Shown: positions 5,377 to 40,614 of the stretch, piece by piece | How the letters are laid out: every line of letters starts with the position of its first letter | How positions within the stretch are numbered: the stretch's first letter is position 1 | DNA from: an uncultured Bacteroidales bacterium | GTDB taxonomy: Bacteria; Bacteroidota; Bacteroidia; Bacteroidales; Bacteroidaceae | Assembly (NCBI GenBank): GCA_902774005.1 | Contig: CACYGK010000006.1 | Coordinates: 1 to 47,262 of the forward strand | DNA length: 47,262 bases | Reading direction: 5' to 3' | The notes under the pieces: generated by a model | What the model was told of the DNA's origin: nothing | Databases searched by the model: none | What the model saw: only the letters and a program-made list of their open reading frames with translations | Program-made: the position numbers and the translations under genes

Positions 5377-5994
5377 TTAACGCTTTTGTTCAAAGGCTTC
5401 GATTTTTTCAGTATTACTGAGCAGGAAATCGATGTCGTCGTATGCATTCATGAGACAGTACTTCTTATAAGAGTTGATGTCGAAGTGCTCTGAATGACCT
5501 GTTGCCATATTAGTAACAGTCTGATTAGGTACATCGACCTTCACCTCAGTCCTGCTGTCATCAGCGATGCTTGCAAAGAGTTCCTGCTGGAATTCACGAC
5601 TCACGATGACAGGGAGTACGAAGCAGTTGAGGAGGTTGTTGCGATGGATGTCGGCAAACGAACTGGATATGACGACACGGATGCCGTAGCCGGCAATTGC
5701 CCATGCTGCATGTTCGCGACTCGAACCACTACCCCAGTTCTGACCACCGACGATGATTTCGTGAACACCCTTACGTGGAGCCTCGCTGTACTGCGGGAGG
5801 TTCATCACAAAGTCTGCAACCGGCTTGCCGTTAGCATCGAAACGGAGGTCGTGCATGAAGGCATCGCCAAAGAACTTAGGGTCGCGAGTAGTACTTGCAA
5901 GATAGCGTGCCGGAATAATCAGATCGGTATTACAGTTGTCAATCTCGATAGGAATACAAGTTGACTGTATGATGTCGAATTTCTCTTTTGCCAT
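5377..5994 (-). CDS. leuD: 3-isopropylmalate dehydratase small subunit
   Basis: A 205-residue small subunit of isopropylmalate isomerase, which with LeuC converts 2-isopropylmalate to 3-isopropylmalate in leucine synthesis. The aconitase swivel-domain signature GGQNWGSGSSREHAAWAI is clear, preceded by DTDLIIPAR-like CNTDLIIPARYL. Length is normal. It is the last gene of leuA-leuC-leuD, starting 6 bases after the leuC stop. The next enzyme, LeuB, is not in the operon or window. Confidence 0.96.
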   Translation of the reverse strand: MAKEKFDIIQSTCIPIEIDNCNTDLIIPARYLASTTRDPKFFGDAFMHDLRFDANGKPVADFVMNLPQYSEAPRKGVHEIIVGGQNWGSGSSREHAAWAIAGYGIRVVISSSFADIHRNNLLNCFVLPVIVSREFQQELFASIADDSRTEVKVDVPNQTVTNMATGHSEHFDINSYKKYCLMNAYDDIDFLLSNTEKIEAFEQKR

Positions 5995-6000
5995 AGTCGT

Positions 6001-7392
6001 TTAAAGTTTACGAGGGTCAGTAATAACACCTGTAATAGCTGAAGCTGCAACTACAAGTGGAGATGCAAGAATGGTGCGGGCACCCGGTCCCTGACGACCT
6101 ACGAAGTTACGGTTGCTCGTAGAAATGGACAGTTTGCCGGCAGGTACCTTATCAGGATTCATAGCCAGACAGCTGGAGCATGACGGCAGACGGAGTTCGA
6201 AGCCTGCATCCTCAAGAATCTTATCAATTCCTTCGTCGATAATCTGCTGACGAACGAGCCATGAACCTGGAACGAGCCATGCAACGACGCTGGCAGCCTT
6301 CTTCTTTCCCTTCACGATGCTGGCAAAAGCACGGAAGTCCTCGATACGTCCGTTGGTGCAGGCACCAAGGAAACAATAATCGACTGGAGTACCTTCCAGT
6401 TTCTGTCCAGGTTTGAACTGCATATAATCAAGCATGCCGAGGAACTGAGCCTTGTCTTCTTCAGGAATGCTTTCGAGTGTAGGAATGCATTCGTCAATGG
6501 CGATACCAGCACCCGGATTGGTTCCGTAGGTGATGCGTGGAGCGATATCTTCAGCACGGTATGTCACTTCCTTATCAAATACTGCATCAGAATCGGAATA
6601 GAGTTTGCGCCACTCCGCTACTGCCTTATCCCAGTCGGCACCTTTGGGTGCGTATTCGCGACCCTTAAGGTATGCAAATGTTGTATCATCGGGAGCAATC
6701 AGTCCGGCACGACTACCCATCTCGATTGAGAGGTTAGAGAGTGTGAGACGACCTTCCATCGACATGTTCTTGATAGCACTTCCGGCATATTCAACTGCAT
6801 AGCCTGTAGCACCGCTGGTAGTCATCTGAGCCATGATATAAAGAGCTACGTCCTTGGCTGTAGTACCCTTAGGCAGCGTGCCTTCGACGTTGATACGCAT
6901 TGTCTTGGGTTTTGACTGCAGGATACACTGTGATGCGAGTACCTGTGCCACTTCGCTTGTACCGATACCCATTGCGATGGCACCTACGGCTCCGTGGGTA
7001 CTGGTGTGGGAGTCACCACAAACGATGGTCATACCAGGCAGGGAGAGTGCTTTCTCCGGACCTACAACATGGATGATACCATTGTCCTTCGTACCCATTG
7101 CAAAGTGTTTGATACCAAATTCCTTACAGTTGTTTGCAAGCGTTTCAACCTGCTTGCGACCTACAGGGTCGTTGATTACTTCTTGCTGGTCGGATGGTGT
7201 GTTGTGGTCGGGCATAGCTACGACGTGGTCGGGACGGAATACCTTCACACCTTTGTCTCTCAATGTGTCAAATGCCTGCGGACTGGTCACTTCGTGTGCG
7301 TACAGACGGTCTATATATAATTGTGTAGGGCCGTCTTCCACGTTCTGAACCACGTGGGCATCCCAAATCTTATCAAATAATGTCTTTCCCAT
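6001..7392 (-). CDS. leuC: 3-isopropylmalate dehydratase large subunit
   Basis: A 463-residue aconitase-family large subunit carrying the [4Fe-4S] cluster of isopropylmalate isomerase. It starts [15 protein letters not shown], the usual LeuC N-terminus. The cluster ligands are in [14 protein letters not shown] and [13 protein letters not shown], and [22 protein letters not shown] is the substrate loop. The reading frame is open nine codons further upstream, but that would overlap the end of leuA and adds nothing homologous. With the ATG at 7392 the gap to leuA is 5 bases. Confidence 0.96.
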
Positions 7393-7397
7393 ATTTT

Positions 7398-8897
7398 TTA
7401 TCTGAACTTGTTTATACAATCGATGTAGGCTTCGACAGAAGCTGTAACTATGTCGGTATTGGCACCGAAACCATAATATACATGTCCGTCGTGCTCTACC
7501 TGCATGTGTACCTTTCCGAGGTCGTCGCTACCCTTAGAGATAGCCTGGATAGTGAACTCCTTCAGCACCATCTTACGCTTAATGATATTCTTAAGAGCAT
7601 TGATGGCTGCATCGACAGGACCATTACCCGAAGCAGCTGCCTCGAAATGTTCGTTGGCAACCTGAAGTCCGATGCTTGCTACGCTGCGTACACCTTTACC
7701 TGTAGTAACCTGAAGGTAATCGAGTTTGACATTGTGGGAAGTACTGCGGTCGGAACCTGCAAGAACGAGTACATCGTCGTCGGTGACTTCCTTCTTCTTG
7801 TCTGCCAGTTTGAGGAACTCCTCGTAAATCTTGTCAAGACGTTCGCCATCTACATCTACTCCGTTAACATGTAGACGGTGTTTCAGTGCAGCACGACCGC
7901 TGCGGGCAGTCAGTACGATTGCATTGTCATCGATTCCGACATCCTTCGGGTCCATAATCTCATAAGTGGAAGCGTTCTTCAACACTCCGTCCTGATGTAT
8001 GCCGGAAGAGTGAGCAAAGGCGTTGCGACCCACGATTGCCTTATTAGGCTGAACAGGCATATTCATCAACGACGAAACCATACGGCTCGTCGGATAAATC
8101 TTAGTAGTATTGATATTAGTCTCGATGCCGAGGTCGGGGTGAGTCTTGAAAATCATTGCCACCTCTTCGAGCGATGTATTTCCGGCACGTTCGCCGATAC
8201 CGTTGATGGTAACCTCAACCTGACGTGCTCCACCAAGTACACCGGCTACGGTATTGGCTGTTGCCATACCAAGGTCGTTATGACAATGGGTTGACAGAAT
8301 GGATTTGCCTGCTGCAAAGGCATCTACATGTTCGTAGAGATACTTTATCTTCTCGTGATATTCGTTGGGCACACGGAAACCGGTAGTGTCAGGAATATTA
8401 CATACGGTAGCACCAGCCTTGGTGACAGCATCGATGACACGAGCGAGGTATTCGTTGTCGGTACGTCCGGCATCCTCAGCATAGAACTCTACGTCATCGA
8501 CATATCGTCGCGCATACTTCACAGCTGCTACGGCACGTTCGATTATCTCCTCAGGAGTGGAGTTGAACTTATACTTAATATGATAAGGACTGGTACCTAT
8601 ACCGGTGTGGATACGCTTGTGCTTCGCAAATTTGAGTGCGTCAGCAGCTACATCGATATCCTTCTCTACGGCACGTGTAAGTGCACAAATAGTTGGCCAG
8701 GTAACAGCCTTGGAAATCTCAACTACACTGTTGAAGTCGCCGGGGCTGCTGATAGGGAAACCTGCTTCGATAACGTCAACACCCAGAGTCTCCAGTTGCT
8801 TTGCAACCTGAATCTTCTCCACTGTGTTCAACTGACATCCCGGCACTTGTTCTCCGTCGCGCAGTGTAGTGTCAAAAATAAATAATCTGTCTGCCAT
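7398..8897 (-). CDS. leuA: 2-isopropylmalate synthase
   Basis: A 499-residue enzyme that condenses acetyl-CoA with 2-ketoisovalerate, the first committed step of leucine synthesis. The N-terminal TIM barrel has [16 protein letters not shown] and the metal-binding [13 protein letters not shown]. The C-terminal LeuA regulatory domain is present ([17 protein letters not shown] onward), so feedback inhibition by leucine is expected. It heads the leuACD operon. Upstream lies a leader ORF with an intrinsic terminator and an antiterminator, so expression is also likely controlled by attenuation. Confidence 0.96.
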
Positions 8898-8945
8898 AAT
8901 ATGTTTGTTTTATAAATTGATCTCACAGCGTCGAGCACATCGGAT

Positions 8946-8981
8946 AAAAACAAAACCCTCCTCACGGCACTGTGAGAAAGG
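8946..8981 (-). terminator. Leu operon attenuator terminator
   Basis: On the minus strand CCTTTCTCAC (8981-8972) pairs with GTGAGGAGGG (8965-8956) around a 6-base loop. All 10 positions can pair, with two G-U pairs, and the hairpin is followed by TTTTGTTTTT. This is a Rho-independent terminator between the leader ORF and leuA. Its 5' arm is perfectly complementary to GTGAGAAAGG inside the leader ORF (minus strand 9035-9026), so an alternative antiterminator excludes it. Confidence 0.85.
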
Positions 8982-8999
8982 TTATAGTTCGTTATGATT

Positions 9000-9098
9000 T
9001 TATCCCATACACATACTTTTACATACCTTTCTCACCACAACCGTGTAAGTCGTAGCGCCAGCAGGGATATAATAGCTGTATATGTCATAATGCCTCAT
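9000..9098 (-). CDS. Leader peptide of the leuACD operon (32 codons)
   Basis: A 32-residue ORF lies between a promoter-like element and the attenuator. It reads MRHYDIYSYYIPAG, then ATTYTVVVRKVCKSMCMG. It has five Tyr, three Thr and a Val-Val-Val run, but no Leu codon and only two Ile codons. CTTACAC (codons 17-19) can pair with GTGGTGAG (codons 21-23), giving the classical segment 1:2 hairpin. GTGAGAAAGG (from codon 22) is segment 2 for the antiterminator. A ribosome paused around codons 15-17 would cover segment 1 and leave segment 2 free. The ATG sits about 10 bases after the -7 element, so the message is nearly leaderless. The sensed amino acid or signal is unclear. Confidence 0.7.
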   Translation of the reverse strand: MRHYDIYSYYIPAGATTYTVVVRKVCKSMCMG

Positions 9099-9108
9099 TG
9101 TTTGCGGC

Positions 9109-9140
9109 GCGAAGGTACGCATTTATCAATAAAGTACAAA
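9109..9140 (-). promoter_or_regulatory. Promoter of the leu leader and leuACD
   Basis: Minus strand TTTG (9140-9137), a 19-base spacer, then TACCTTCGC (9117-9109), one base off the Bacteroidota -7 consensus TAnnTTTGC. The transcript should start only a few bases before the leader ATG at 9098. It is divergent from xylB. I found no good promoter for xylB in the same gap. Confidence 0.6.
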
Positions 9141-9232
9141 ATAATCGAAGAAAAAGTTGGCAGTCACAAATATAATTTGGAAATTTGTAAGCAAAATATA
9201 ATACCAACACAAAAGACAAAAAACAAAAAAAC

Positions 9233-10723
9233 ATGGCAAACAGATATCTTTTGGGATTCGATGTCGGCAGTTCATCTGTCAAGGCATCGCTTGTAAATGC
9301 CGACAGCGGTAAGTGCGTTGCAGCGGCATTCTATCCCAAACATGAGGCAGAGATTATAGCCGTAAAGGCTGGTTGGGCAGAACAGAATCCACAGACCTGG
9401 TGGGAGTATGCAAAAATGTCATTGCAGGCAGTTATGTCGGAAGCTAACGTGAAAGGTGACGAGATTGCAGCCGTCGGCATTTCCTATCAGATGCACGGAC
9501 TGGTATGTGTGGACAAGAACCAGCAAGTGCTCCGTCCAGCTATCATTTGGTGCGACTCACGTGGCGTACCCTATGGCGAAAAGGGATTCAAGGACTTAGG
9601 TGAGCAGTGGTGTCTGTCGCACCTGCTGAATTCCCCAGGCAATTTCACAGCTACAAAGTTGGCTTGGATAAAAGAGAACGAGCCTGAGTTGTTCGAGAAG
9701 ATATATAAGATAATGTTGCCGGGCGACTATCTGGCAATGCGTCTGTCAGGACAGGTAGGTACTACGGTGAGTGGTCTGAGCGAAGGTATGTTCTGGGACT
9801 TCAAGGAGAACCGTGTATCGCAGACTCTGCTTGATTACTACGGCTTTGACAAGTCAATATTGTCGGATATCGTGCCTTCGTTCGGTATAGAGAGCGAAGT
9901 ATGCAAGGAAGCTGCCGAGGAACTAGGATTGAAGGTAGGAACTCCTATCTCTTACCGTGGTGGTGACCAGCCGAACAATGCCCTGTCGTTGAACGTAATG
10001 AATCCGGGCGAGATAGCTGCTACTGCAGGTACTTCAGGTGTAGTATATGGAGTGCTTGGCGAAGTAAACTATGATCCTCAGTCGCGTGTCAATACTTTTG
10101 CTCATGTCAATCACACAGACGACTTGACACGTCTTGGAGTATTGCTCTGCATCAACGGTACGGGCATCCTGAATGCATGGACTCACAGGAATATAACTCC
10201 TGAACTGGGTTATGCAGAGATGAACGACCTTGCAGAGACCGTACCTGTAGGAAGCGAAGGACTGACGGTTATTCCGTTCGGAAACGGTGCAGAACGTGTA
10301 CTTGTAAACAAAGAGACAGGCTGCTCGTTCAATGGTCTGAACTTCAACAAACATAATAAGGCACATATGGTAAGAGCTGCTCAGGAAGGCATTGCCTTCT
10401 CCTTCTGCTACGGAATCGAAATCATGAAGGAGATGGGTATGAATATCCGAAATATCCATGCAGGAAAAGCAAATATGTTCCTGAGTCCGTTGTTCCGTAA
10501 TACATTGTCAAGTGTTTGTGGAGCTACTATTGAATTGTACGACACTGACGGCAGTGTGGGTGCAGCCAAAGGTGCAGGAATCGGTGCAGGAATATACAAG
10601 AACTGTGACGAAGCTTTCGCATCATTGGAGAAACTGGCAGTTATCGAACCTGATACCGCTCAAAAAGAAAACTATCTGACAGCATATAACCGCTGGAAGG
10701 AAACACTTAATAACATCATATAA
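9233..10723 (+). CDS. xylB: Xylulokinase
   Basis: A 496-residue FGGY-family sugar kinase that phosphorylates D-xylulose to xylulose-5-phosphate with ATP, feeding the pentose-phosphate pathway. The N-terminal ATP-binding motif is GFDVGSSSVKASLV (residues 8-21). The C-terminal half holds GGDQPNNALSLN and the ATPase-fold motif AATAGTSGVVYG. Length is typical. It is followed 35 bases later by xylA, so the pair forms a xylose catabolic operon. The FGGY family includes other kinases, but the xylA neighbour settles the substrate. No xylose transporter or xylR regulator is adjacent. Confidence 0.93.
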   Translation: MANRYLLGFDVGSSSVKASLVNADSGKCVAAAFYPKHEAEIIAVKAGWAEQNPQTWWEYAKMSLQAVMSEANVKGDEIAAVGISYQMHGLVCVDKNQQVLRPAIIWCDSRGVPYGEKGFKDLGEQWCLSHLLNSPGNFTATKLAWIKENEPELFEKIYKIMLPGDYLAMRLSGQVGTTVSGLSEGMFWDFKENRVSQTLLDYYGFDKSILSDIVPSFGIESEVCKEAAEELGLKVGTPISYRGGDQPNNALSLNVMNPGEIAATAGTSGVVYGVLGEVNYDPQSRVNTFAHVNHTDDLTRLGVLLCINGTGILNAWTHRNITPELGYAEMNDLAETVPVGSEGLTVIPFGNGAERVLVNKETGCSFNGLNFNKHNKAHMVRAAQEGIAFSFCYGIEIMKEMGMNIRNIHAGKANMFLSPLFRNTLSSVCGATIELYDTDGSVGAAKGAGIGAGIYKNCDEAFASLEKLAVIEPDTAQKENYLTAYNRWKETLNNII

Positions 10724-37063: not shown

Positions 37064-38866
37064 TCAGTCAATAATTCTTACACCACCCTTATCAGCACTC
37101 GACACACTCTGAGCGTATGCACGCAGAGCCTTTGACACTACACGGTTGCGCTTCAGCGGCTGCTGAGGACGCGCTGCAAGTTCTTCGTCCGAGAGACGTA
37201 CATTTATACTACGGTTCGGAATGTCAATCTCGATGATGTCGCCATCAACAATCTTTCCGATATTACCACCACTGGCAGCCTCCGGAGAGACGTGACCGAT
37301 AGAGAGTCCTGATGTTCCACCGGAGAATCGTCCGTCGGTGATAAGCGCACATTCCTTACCCATGTGCATACTCTTTATATAAGATGTAGGATAGAGCATC
37401 TCCTGCATACCAGGACCACCCTTCGGACCTTCGTGAGTGATGACGACTACATCGCCCTTCTTCACTTTTCCTCCGAGAATACCCTCGCATGCATCTTCCT
37501 GACTGTCGAACACAACGGCTGGACCTGCAAACTTCCATATGCTTTCGTCAACTCCGGCAGTCTTCACTACGCAGCCGTCCTGAGCAATGTTTCCAAAGAG
37601 GATTGCCATACCGCCGTCCTTAGTGTATGCATGCTCAATATCACGGATACATCCCTTCTCACGGTCTGTATCGAGAGTCTCGTAGTTTGTATTCTGCACA
37701 CCAAGCTGGTTGCAGAACTTGCCGGCAGGAGCACTTGAATAGATGCGCTTAGCCTCCGGGTCGATATTTGCTTTGAGTATGCTGTATTTCTCAATGTCTT
37801 CTGCGAGAGTAGCTCCGTTCACACGCTTCACGCTTGTATCGATAAGTCCGCCCTTAGCCAGTTCGCCGAGCAGGTTGAGCATACCACCGGCACGTCCACA
37901 CTCCTGTACGCTGTACTTCTGACTGTTTGGTGCCAGTTTGCAGAGGAACGGAGTTTTACGTGACAGGGCATCGATATCCTTCATCGAGAAGTCAACACCT
38001 GCTTCCTGAGCAACAGCAAGGAGGTGAAGTACAGTATTTGTCGAAGCACCCATTGCGATGTCGAGGGTCATGGCATTGAGGAATGCCTTACGTGTAGCGA
38101 TGCTGCGTGGCAGTACGCTCTCGTCACCGTCTTCGTAGTATGCCATAGCGTTCTTCACAATCTGACGGGCAGCAGCCTTCATCAGTTCGATACGGTTCAC
38201 GTGAGTAGCAAGTATGGTTCCGTTACCTGGCAGGCTGAGTCCGATAGCTTCAGTCAGGTTATTCATCGAGTTGGCTGTAAACATTCCTGAGCAGCATCCG
38301 CAACCCGGACATGCACGGTTCTCAACCTCTGCCAGTTCCTCGTCGCTCACCGTCGGGTCGGCACCCTTAATCATAGCTGCAATGAGGTCGAGGTTTTCAC
38401 CCTTATACACTCCTGCCTCCATCGGACCACCGCTTACAAACACAGCAGGTATGTTGAGTCGCATTGCAGCCATCAGCATACCCGGAGTAATCTTGTCGCA
38501 GTTGGAGATACAAACCATCGCGTCAGCCTTGTGGGCATTACACATATATTCAACTGAGTCGGCAATGATGTCGCGCGAAGGCAAACTGTAGAGCATACCG
38601 TCGTGTCCCATTGCTATGCCGTCGTCGATGGCTATAGTATTGAATTCAGCTGCATAACAGCCCAAACGTTCTATCTCAGCTTTTACTATCTGTCCTGCTT
38701 CATGCAGATGGGTGTGACCCGGCACGAACTGCGTGAAAGAGTTTACGATGGCAATGATTGGTTTACCGAATTGCTCACGCTTCATACCATTGGCAACCCA
38801 CAGTGCTCTGGCACCTGCCATTCTGCGTCCTTCTGTACAGACAGAACTACGTAACTTATTCTTCAT
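37064..38866 (-). CDS. ilvD: Dihydroxy-acid dehydratase
   Basis: A 600-residue iron-sulfur enzyme that dehydrates dihydroxyacids to 2-keto acids, the shared third step of valine and isoleucine synthesis. Cluster and metal-binding motifs are [15 protein letters not shown] and [27 protein letters not shown]-like [13 protein letters not shown] follows. Length is normal. It is first of the ilvDBNC operon, read from a promoter at 38892-38925. Unlike leuA, it has no leader ORF or attenuator in its short upstream region. Confidence 0.97.
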
Positions 38867-38891
38867 CTTTATACCTTTTTGTATTTTGCGT

Positions 38892-38925
38892 GCAAAAGTA
38901 CGAATTTTATTCGTTATCCGAACAA
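38892..38925 (-). promoter_or_regulatory. Promoter for ilvDBNC
   Basis: TACTTTTGC (minus strand 38900-38892) with TTG 22 bases upstream (38925-38923). It is back to back with the iorA promoter, and the upstream regions of the two share about 25 bases. Confidence 0.6.
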
Positions 38926-38950
38926 CAAAAACAAGAAAAACTGCATCGCG

Positions 38951-38984
38951 TTGCTGGTATTAGAAATAAAATTCGTAATTTCGC
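38951..38984 (+). promoter_or_regulatory. Promoter for iorAB-paaK
   Basis: TTG (38951-38953), a 22-base spacer and TAATTTCGC (38976-38984), one base from consensus. It lies 31 bases before the iorA start. Confidence 0.5.
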
Positions 38985-39015
38985 GCCGATTTTGTTGAAA
39001 TAGAATCGATATAAG

Positions 39016-40614
39016 ATGAAAAAACTGTTATTAGGCGACGAAGCAATAGCTTTGGGCGCCATTCATGCTGGACTGAGCGGTGTGTATGCTTATCCAGGTA
39101 CTCCGTCGACCGAAATCACGGAGTTTATTCAGGCTGACGCCACAGCCCGCGAGCGTGGTGTACACAGCCGTTGGTGCACGAACGAGAAGACTGCGATGGA
39201 GGCTGCGTTGGGTATGTCTTACGCAGGAAAACGTGCTTTGGTGTGTATGAAACATGTGGGCATGAACGTATGTGCCGATGCCTTTGTGAACAGCGCCATT
39301 ACTGGTGTCAACGGCGGACTCATCGTCCTTGCAGCCGACGACCCTTCGATGCATAGCAGTCAGAACGAGCAGGACAGCCGTTTCTATGGTAAGTTTGCCC
39401 TCGTTCCCGTATTCGAACCGAGCAACCAGCAGGAAGCATACGATATGGTAAGCAGCGCCTTCGACTTTTCCGAAGCATTGAAAGTACCTGTAGTCCTGCG
39501 TATCGTCACACGTCTGGCACATAGCCGTGCTGCCGTTGAAATCGGCAATCAGGGTGCCGAGAACAAACTCAACCCGTCAACCGACCAGTGGGTACTCCTC
39601 CCAGGTATCGCACGAAAGAAATATGTCGATTTGCTCAACAAACAACCTAAGTTTATTGAGGCAAGCGAGAACTCACGTTATAATAAGGTAGAGAAAGGCG
39701 GACAGAAGCGTCTTGGCATCGTGGCATGCGGTATTGGTTACAACTACGTTAAGGAAGCTGTAGGCAATGATGCAAATATTCTGAAGATCAGTCAGTATCC
39801 TCTGCCTGAGGCAAAGATAAAGGCTTTGGCTGCTGAGAACGATGAAATCCTTGTAGTCGAGGACGGACAGCCCGTCGTAGAGGAAGGTCTGAAGGCTCTG
39901 CTCGGAGCCGGCTATCCGGTTAAGGGACGCCTCACAGGCGACCTTCCACGTACAGGCGAACTCACTCCCGACTGCGTGGCAAAAGCTCTCGGCAAACCAT
40001 GCGGAGCGGTTTACGAACCGGCTAAGAACCTTGCAGGACGTCCTCCACAGCTCTGTCAGGGATGCGGACACCGCGATGTCTATGCTGCCCTCAACGCCGT
40101 ACTTGCTGAATATCCCGACTATCGCGTATTTGGTGACATTGGTTGTTACACACTCGGAGCCCTGCCCCCATTCAAGAGTCTTTCATCTTGTGTCGATATG
40201 GGTGCCAGCATCACTATGGCAAAGGGTGCTGCCGACGCAGGCCTCTTCCCAGCCGTTGCCATCATCGGTGACTCTACATTCACTCATAGCGGTATGACCG
40301 GTCTGCTCGATGCCGTCAATGACAAGTCGAACATCACCGTTGTCATCTCCGACAACCTCACCACAGGTATGACCGGTGGTCAGGATTCCGCCGGAACGAA
40401 CAAGTTCGAGGCTATCTGTCTCGGTCTTGGTGTAGAACCCGAACACGTTCGCGTGGTCGTTCCACTTCCGAAGAACATGCCTGAAATCACTCGCATCCTG
40501 AAGGAAGAGATTGAATATAACGGAGTAAGCGTCATCATTCCACGTCGTGAGTGCATCCAGACAGCAGCACGTCACGCCCGTGAAGCAAAGAAAGCAAAGG
40601 AGGCAAACAAATGA
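39016..40614 (+). CDS. iorA: Indolepyruvate ferredoxin oxidoreductase, alpha subunit
   Basis: A 532-residue subunit of the TPP-dependent enzyme that interconverts aryl-pyruvates and aryl-acetyl-CoA with ferredoxin. It begins with LLLGDEAIALGAIHAG, and the N-terminal domain has GVYAYPGTPSTEITEF. The TPP region is GDIGCYTLGALPPF to GDSTFTHSGMTGLLDAV. The C-terminus ends ARHAREAKKAKEANK, with no CxxCxxC motif, so it lacks the 8Fe ferredoxin-like tail of archaeal IorA and is about 70-90 residues short of that form. The stop overlaps the iorB ATG by 4 bases. Confidence 0.92.
   Translation: MKKLLLGDEAIALGAIHAGLSGVYAYPGTPSTEITEFIQADATARERGVHSRWCTNEKTAMEAALGMSYAGKRALVCMKHVGMNVCADAFVNSAITGVNGGLIVLAADDPSMHSSQNEQDSRFYGKFALVPVFEPSNQQEAYDMVSSAFDFSEALKVPVVLRIVTRLAHSRAAVEIGNQGAENKLNPSTDQWVLLPGIARKKYVDLLNKQPKFIEASENSRYNKVEKGGQKRLGIVACGIGYNYVKEAVGNDANILKISQYPLPEAKIKALAAENDEILVVEDGQPVVEEGLKALLGAGYPVKGRLTGDLPRTGELTPDCVAKALGKPCGAVYEPAKNLAGRPPQLCQGCGHRDVYAALNAVLAEYPDYRVFGDIGCYTLGALPPFKSLSSCVDMGASITMAKGAADAGLFPAVAIIGDSTFTHSGMTGLLDAVNDKSNITVVISDNLTTGMTGGQDSAGTNKFEAICLGLGVEPEHVRVVVPLPKNMPEITRILKEEIEYNGVSVIIPRRECIQTAARHAREAKKAKEANK

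Follow-up and report, generated by a model that had tools for sequence, protein, structure and literature searches.

How does an attenuator that precedes a leucine biosynthetic operon respond to leucine if its leader peptide contains no Leu codon? This question is raised by the region upstream of leuA in the window, that is, the whole stretch of 47,262 nucleotides that was analyzed. An earlier note described this region as an attenuator for the leu operon whose leader lacks Leu codons, and concluded that the control codons specify something other than leucine or, alternatively, that sensing acts on the nascent peptide itself. The sequence supports the first part of this description well; the missing Leu codons reflect an error of reading frame, in that a wrong start (ATG 9098) and its frame had been chosen. 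As read from the DNA, the region features a Leu-rich leader ORF and a predicted antiterminator (2:3) and terminator (3:4) sharing segment 3, and this arrangement is conserved before leuA. A classical ribosome-mediated transcription attenuator most likely controls leuA–leuC–leuD (probability roughly 0.92), and the leucine attenuator is ordinary in kind.

The leu operon and its leader region

The leu operon lies on the minus strand in the order leader, leuA, leuC, and leuD, and all leader features below refer to this strand. The gene leuA, which encodes 2-isopropylmalate synthase (7398–8897, starting at 8897), matches NCBIfam TIGR00973 with 652.3 bits at a cut-off of 598.7. The genes of the large and small subunits of 3-isopropylmalate dehydratase, leuC (6001–7392) and leuD (5377–5994), match TIGR00170 with 606.9 bits (cut-off 560.25) and TIGR00171 with 148.1 bits (cut-off 116.25), respectively. 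The leader is placed between leuA and a divergent xylulokinase-like gene (xylB) at 9233, which reaches 309.8 bits against TIGR01312 and thereby stays below the cut-off of 380.25. Ownership of the element by xylB was considered and rejected, since xylB adjoins leuA in just 2 of 41 genus loci—a count that includes 11 loci with short flanks.

In line with the promoter that had been proposed on the minus strand, a promoter-like pair (9110–9140) was found in the sequence. It consists of a −33 box TTTG (9140–9137) and a −7 box TACCTTCG (9117–9110), which we take to match the promoter consensus of Bacteroidetes, and from the position of these boxes the transcript is predicted to start at about 9105–9101. 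A −7-like box is located 24–31 nt 5′ of the start of the Leu ORF described below in 13 of 14 hand-picked loci; in the remaining one, L085, no −7-like box with that spacing was found. A sigma-70 promoter scan gave no match; the promoter type of the Bacteroidetes phylum is other than that of sigma-70.

RNA segments of the leader

Segment 2 (GTGAGAAAGG, 9035–9026) is the 5′ strand of the putative antiterminator and would form 10 perfect pairs with segment 3 (CCTTTCTCAC, 8981–8972). Segment 3, as judged by the sequence and an alignment of 42 leaders, is common to antiterminator and terminator, so that the two predicted structures share a strand. The 3′ arm of the terminator is segment 4 (GTGAGGAGGG, 8965–8956), supported by the alignment and a terminator scan. 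Terminator 3:4, an intrinsic terminator that precedes the first structural gene, spans 8981–8956 and is followed by the U-run TTTTGTTTTT (8955–8946), at which, by sequence and terminator scan, the attenuated transcript is expected to end. The scan returned this one site in 8700–9300, with a mean of 0.5 and an SD of 0.6 in shuffles. The succession of a 10-base antiterminator, terminator, U-run, and leuA on the minus strand was hence described correctly in the earlier note. The leader RNA folds with a z-score of −3.99, a stability matched by 1 of 200 shuffles.

The initial pairing of the leader, in contrast, had been misassigned as CTTACAC/GTGGTGAG. The minimum-energy fold instead pairs 9057–9048 with 9042–9033, and the resulting hairpin 1:2 (9033–9057), for which comparative support is weak, overlaps the first three bases of segment 2. 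Rfam gave no match at or above the gathering cut-off in the window, Leu_leader and other cis-regulatory families included.

Two overlapping leader ORFs

The 32-codon ORF of the earlier note (MRHYDIYSYYIPAGATTYTVVVRKVCKSMCMG, 9098–9000) is present as a string. Ten bases downstream of its ATG at 9098, a second ATG at 9088 opens an overlapping ORF (9088–9032), which had been overlooked in the statement that the leader holds no Leu codon. This ORF, MTYTAIISLLALRLTRLW*, comprises 18 codons and is rich in codons for the amino acid its operon makes: the five Leu codons CTG, CTG, CTA, CTT, and TTG begin at 9064, 9061, 9055, 9049, and 9040. Its stop codon TGA (9034–9032) lies within segment 2. Upon dinucleotide shuffling of 9104–9000, an ORF with at least five Leu codons was obtained in 26 of 5000 cases, and in 8 of 5000 with the same Leu density too.

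The apparently almost leaderless nature of the leader ORF follows from picking ATG 9098 instead of ATG 9088. The pause site that had been derived from geometry was well placed, at 9056–9048, and its codons were misread: Ala15-Thr16-Thr17 is, one base off, CTA CGA CTT, that is, Leu-Arg-Leu. These codons are part of the probable control region CTG CTG GCG CTA CGA CTT (9047–9064), which carries four Leu codons and is delimited by folds with a 12-nt ribosome edge.

Predicted response to ribosome position

Folds of the window were calculated for seven ribosome states, with the ribosome edge set 12 nt downstream of the A site. The antiterminator is predicted to form with the ribosome on the Leu codons at 9064, 9061, 9055, and 9049—the stall on CTA 9055 being a close call at −26.8 versus −26.2 kcal/mol—and the terminator with the ribosome on TTG 9040, at TGA 9034, or absent. 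TTG 9040 is not a useful control codon, since a stall there would block segment 2. Moved codon by codon, a ribosome stalled anywhere in codons 2 to 15 (9085 to 9046) yields the antiterminator; Leu has no special status in the fold model, and the Leu specificity therefore rests on codon content and conservation.

These states suggest the following cycle. With charged tRNA-Leu scarce, the ribosome would stall on CTG CTG, CTA, or CTT and cover segment 1, upon which segment 2 would pair with segment 3 and RNA polymerase would read into leuA. With leucine plentiful, the ribosome would proceed to TGA 9034–9032 and sit on segment 2, and 3:4 would end transcription at about 8955–8946. Without translation, hairpin 1:2 and the terminator would form, corresponding to a basal off state.

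The folds of the 42 aligned leaders are mixed in this respect. In full-length folds with the 12-nt edge, the antiterminator is favored at 62 of 216 Leu-codon stalls, and such stalls occur in 25 of 42 sequences. If segment 4 is not yet made, all 216 of the 216 Leu stalls favor the antiterminator, but so do 33 of 42 sequences without a ribosome. A ribosome at the ORF stop leads to the terminator in 42 of 42 leaders, where only the RNA 3′ of the ribosome was folded. In 28 of 42 leaders the stop is situated 21 nt 5′ of segment 3 and hence past segment 2, so their off state would have to differ somewhat from that of the window. The switch in which a stall on the control codons would free segment 2 and a ribosome at the stop would cover it is thus predicted by the folds for the window only.

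Conservation in the genus

Leaders of relatives were found by the motifs CGACTTA and CTTT[CT]T[CT], yielding 65 loci with 45 distinct leaders. The alignment contains 42 of these, most but not all from the genus of the window; L024 (no ORF) as well as L054 and L163 (divergent) were left out. LeuA is present in 43 of 45 genus genomes. With training loci counted, 39 of the 45 have a match of at least 101 bits beside leuA to a covariance model of the 42 leaders; the window leader itself scores 116.3 bits. In the other six genomes, the best match of this model is located before ilvD, not leuA, in G013, G019, and G028 and before pheA in G021 and G029—such matches in genomes lacking a strong leuA hit score 37–46 bits—and G037 has no match to the model. 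Among the 41 genus loci with upstream sequence, no leader is seen in the 600 nt next to leuA in four (L086, L117, L119, and L120), and in L098 the leader is present but broken by an insertion. The peptide core LLxLRL is kept ahead of leuA across the genus.

The reading frame was compared over nine codon columns in the 42 distinct leaders, the window included. In the Leu frame, 2031 of 5128 codon differences are synonymous (39.6%) and stops are absent, whereas the 9098 frame features 183 of 4858 (3.8%) and five stop cells. The third frame has 9.1% synonymous differences and 25 stop cells. Leu column −1 encodes Leu in 42 of 42 leaders by three codons (CTA 21, CTT 16, CTG 5); columns −3 and −4 encode it in 39 and 36 of 42, each by five codons. 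No column of that kind, with the residue kept and the codon changing, occurs in the other two frames of these leaders. As regards a leader that senses its nascent peptide, the LRL residues are conserved, but CGA and CTT are invariant as DNA in 42 of 42, for which RNA pairing could also be the cause; their invariance is less telling in addition because CGACTTA served to find these leaders.

A short form of the leader is found in four sequences: the window (L001) and the relatives L002, L005, and L092. Pairwise comparison of these four over the 18 codons gives 16 synonymous and 17 nonsynonymous differences in the Leu frame, against 0 synonymous and 37 nonsynonymous ones for the same stretch in the 9098 frame.

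With respect to the RNA, terminator 3:4 is paired in 419 of 420 cells of the 42 leaders and has seven cells changed on both sides; this measure and the covariation score were reached by 0 of 500 shuffles. Pairs changed on both sides (reached by 62 of 500 shuffles) and pair types (302 of 500) are not above shuffles. The antiterminator is paired in 97.6% with no excess of paired changes over the 42 leaders, a level that 199 of 500 shuffles reach, and stem 1:2 is paired in 81.7%, not above shuffles.

Origin of the short form and alternative readings

Many relatives carry a longer leader, for example MATYSNIALLNLLGLRLTESEVRKVCVCYQA*. In the alignment, the clade of the window lacks one base in the interval from LRLT to segment 2; therefore the stop falls in segment 2, and the old tail VRKVC is left in the 9098 frame. 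The C-terminal half of MRHYDIYSYYIPAGATTYTVVVRKVCKSMCMG is read in the frame that encodes the tail of the longer leader in relatives, and the frame of its N-terminal half is not conserved as protein. A 1-base deletion after the control codons thus appears to have cut the peptide from ∼31 to 18 residues in this clade, with the RNA stems retained.

Both overlapping ORFs might be translated as an addition to leucine attenuation, the short one sensing leucine and the long one driving ribosomes through segment 2 and setting the basal level, a role that the relatives' longer leader may likewise have. We consider this improbable: the upstream ATG and its frame are kept in four of four short-form sequences, and a gap of 18 nt separates the end of the long ORF from segment 3, near the 21 nt of 28 of 42 leaders, yet these are four sequences only, the predicted 5′ UTR of the upstream ATG amounts to ∼3–7 nt, and the residues of the long ORF are unconstrained. 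The corresponding evolutionary scenario, in which the one-base deletion split the ancestral leader into two overlapping and both-used ORFs—a short leucine sensor and a long ORF for ribosome flow through segment 2 and the basal level—is equally improbable.

Sensing by other means, with a tRNA bound as in a T-box, a small molecule, or a protein acting on the RNA and the ORF being incidental, is very unlikely. Such a reading could draw on the fact that translation of the ORF is deduced from the sequence and that Leu codons do not stand out in the folds alone; it is at odds with the conservation of Leu at the codon level, with the codons of sister leaders, which are matched to their operons, and with the lack of an Rfam family at cut-off in the window. 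That the 32-codon ORF 9098–9000 is itself the sensor, by non-Leu control codons or by a nascent-peptide signal, is scarcely credible: its start is kept and its frame open over 31 compared codons in four of four short-form sequences, window included, but none of its 37 codon differences there is synonymous, its synonymous share over the 42 leaders is 3.8% with five stop cells, and the pause predicted for it sits on Leu codons of the other frame.

Leucine leaders in the wider family

Other members of the family, too, have candidate leaders related to the leucine attenuator of the window. Ahead of leuA in loci outside the genus are, for instance, MIQNFTYILLCGIIILLAKFSGSECCA and, in the named record of Phocaeicola sp. 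(L065), MIKSFIDILLHGIIILLARLVGSECRA, with GGAAGTGAG:CTCACTTCC as the putative antiterminator. The family loci L142–L201 feature peptides of the type ILLxxIIILL...GSExxA ahead of leuA and the same antiterminator; the GSE in these peptides is hence segment 2 read as codons. In five tested loci of L142–L201, no Rfam cis-regulatory match was found. Seven loci searched against Rfam to an E value of 1 gave 5S rRNA and two sub-threshold sRNA matches only, and six further loci none. At 389–448 on the minus strand of L156, a sub-threshold match to Rfam STnc390 reaches 33.8 bits at a cut-off of 50.

The antiterminator of 38 leaders outside the genus is paired in 99.1% of cells, with three pairs changed on both sides and 0 of 500 shuffles as high; since the 38 sequences are chosen positives, most of which had passed a scan demanding a complement of at least 8 pairs, the 99.1% partly reflects this selection, which also favors the outcome of the shuffle test. 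A joint scan for ORF, antiterminator, and terminator recovers 34 of 41 genus loci, 41 of 60 other family loci, hand-chosen across genera and not random, and 0 of 505 shuffled sequences. The first two are tuned rates because the limits on peptide richness and loops were loosened after known cases had failed; under the stricter first thresholds, the scan recovered 6 of 41 loci of the genus, 2 of 60 of the family, and 5 of 78 named ones, along with 0 of 895 shuffled sequences.

Loci L027, L118, and L121 allow for pairing along both registers, which suggests that the antiterminator slid along one strand. The sequences favor a wider leucine/isoleucine leader family in which the antiterminator slid along one conserved strand, from GTGAGAAAGG:CCTTTCTCAC here to GGAAGTGAG:CTCACTTCC elsewhere or the reverse. 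The two registers constitute a natural case of drift in such RNAs.

Relation to known attenuators

The enteric leuLABCD attenuator (Rfam Leu_leader) features a leader ORF with Leu codons, a mutually exclusive antiterminator and terminator, and leuA downstream. The window is similar in its Leu-codon ORF, its predicted exclusive antiterminator and terminator, and leuA on the 3′ side. It differs in that it has no Rfam match and no four adjacent Leu codons, the stop codon lies inside segment 2, and the host belongs to the Bacteroidota. A comparative study by Lopatovskaya and colleagues from 2010 may cover this group.

The ilv-leu attenuator of Staphylococcus aureus is described with a Leu/Ile-rich leader peptide, a downstream terminator, and Leu-dependent control (PMC5794164). 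The Leu-rich leader and downstream terminator resemble those of the window; the antiterminator predicted there uses the poly-U as its pairing partner, and the terminator stem stays intact, whereas segment 3 would be shared in the window (PMC5794164). Leu-related leaders of other phyla appear in excerpts of two papers (PMC5794164, PMC1262725). Within the phylum of the window, the excerpts report clues for leader-peptide attenuation of amino acid operons in Flavobacterium psychrophilum (PMC9723704), list Bacteroid-trp RF01692 (PMC2864571), and mention short ORFs in long 5′ UTRs of Bacteroides thetaiotaomicron with leader-peptide attenuation as a possibility (PMC7366714); these excerpts name no leu leader (PMC9723704, PMC2864571, PMC7366714). 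Elements 5′ of pheA and hisG are named for Flavobacteriaceae in the text available. A description of a leu leader in Bacteroidales was not found in the excerpts of the open PMC literature, among the matches listed. The apparent anomaly is replaced by a well-supported classical attenuator in Bacteroidota, on whose control of amino acid operons little was found in print (open PMC, among the matches listed).

Sister leaders at other operons

Further leaders were found with the model of the leuA leader, and the sister loci are therefore not a random sample. In the genome of the window, a leader with three Trp codons (MKKMYNTYWWWQNLRFKIS; L220 on C73) precedes trpB (TIGR00263, 568.5 bits), with a terminator assigned by eye; a search of L220 against Rfam at E 0.1 gave no match, not even to Bacteroid-trp. 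A Phe/Tyr-rich leader (MKFNFGAYYYFYFYFTKQ; L219 on C55) precedes pheA (PF00800) in the same genome, with attenuator-like segments AGAGCGGGAT / ATCCCGCTC / GAGTGGGAT and a terminator, all assigned by eye. No His leader was seen at hisG of this genome. The ilvD gene of the window starts at 38866; a candidate 10-codon ORF ends ∼47 nt upstream of it, and no minus-strand terminator was found in 38800–39200; the leader was counted absent because the ORF precedes the promoter-like TACTTTTG and no terminator was found.

Relatives feature Phe/Tyr-rich leaders before pheA in seven loci and Ile/Leu/Val-rich leaders before ilvD in three, the latter (L205, L208, and L209 of G013, G028, and G019) with terminator-like hairpins. 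G019 and G028 show no leuA leader, and in the genome of the window the leuA leader is present and none was seen at ilvD, so that control may have moved between operons. Gene families were checked for ilvD of L205 and L208 and for the pheA fragments of L206 and L211, which are cut at 200 residues and do not reach the cut-offs for the whole protein; the remaining six genes were named by eye. Among 14 extra loci, L217 is a leuA leader, and no leader was seen in L213 and L218. A leader with two Trp codons precedes a trpB-like gene, named by eye, in L214. Where a leader is seen, its codons match the operon, as ribosome-mediated attenuation predicts, and the related leu, ilv, phe, and trp leaders with matching codons form a ready list of testable switches.
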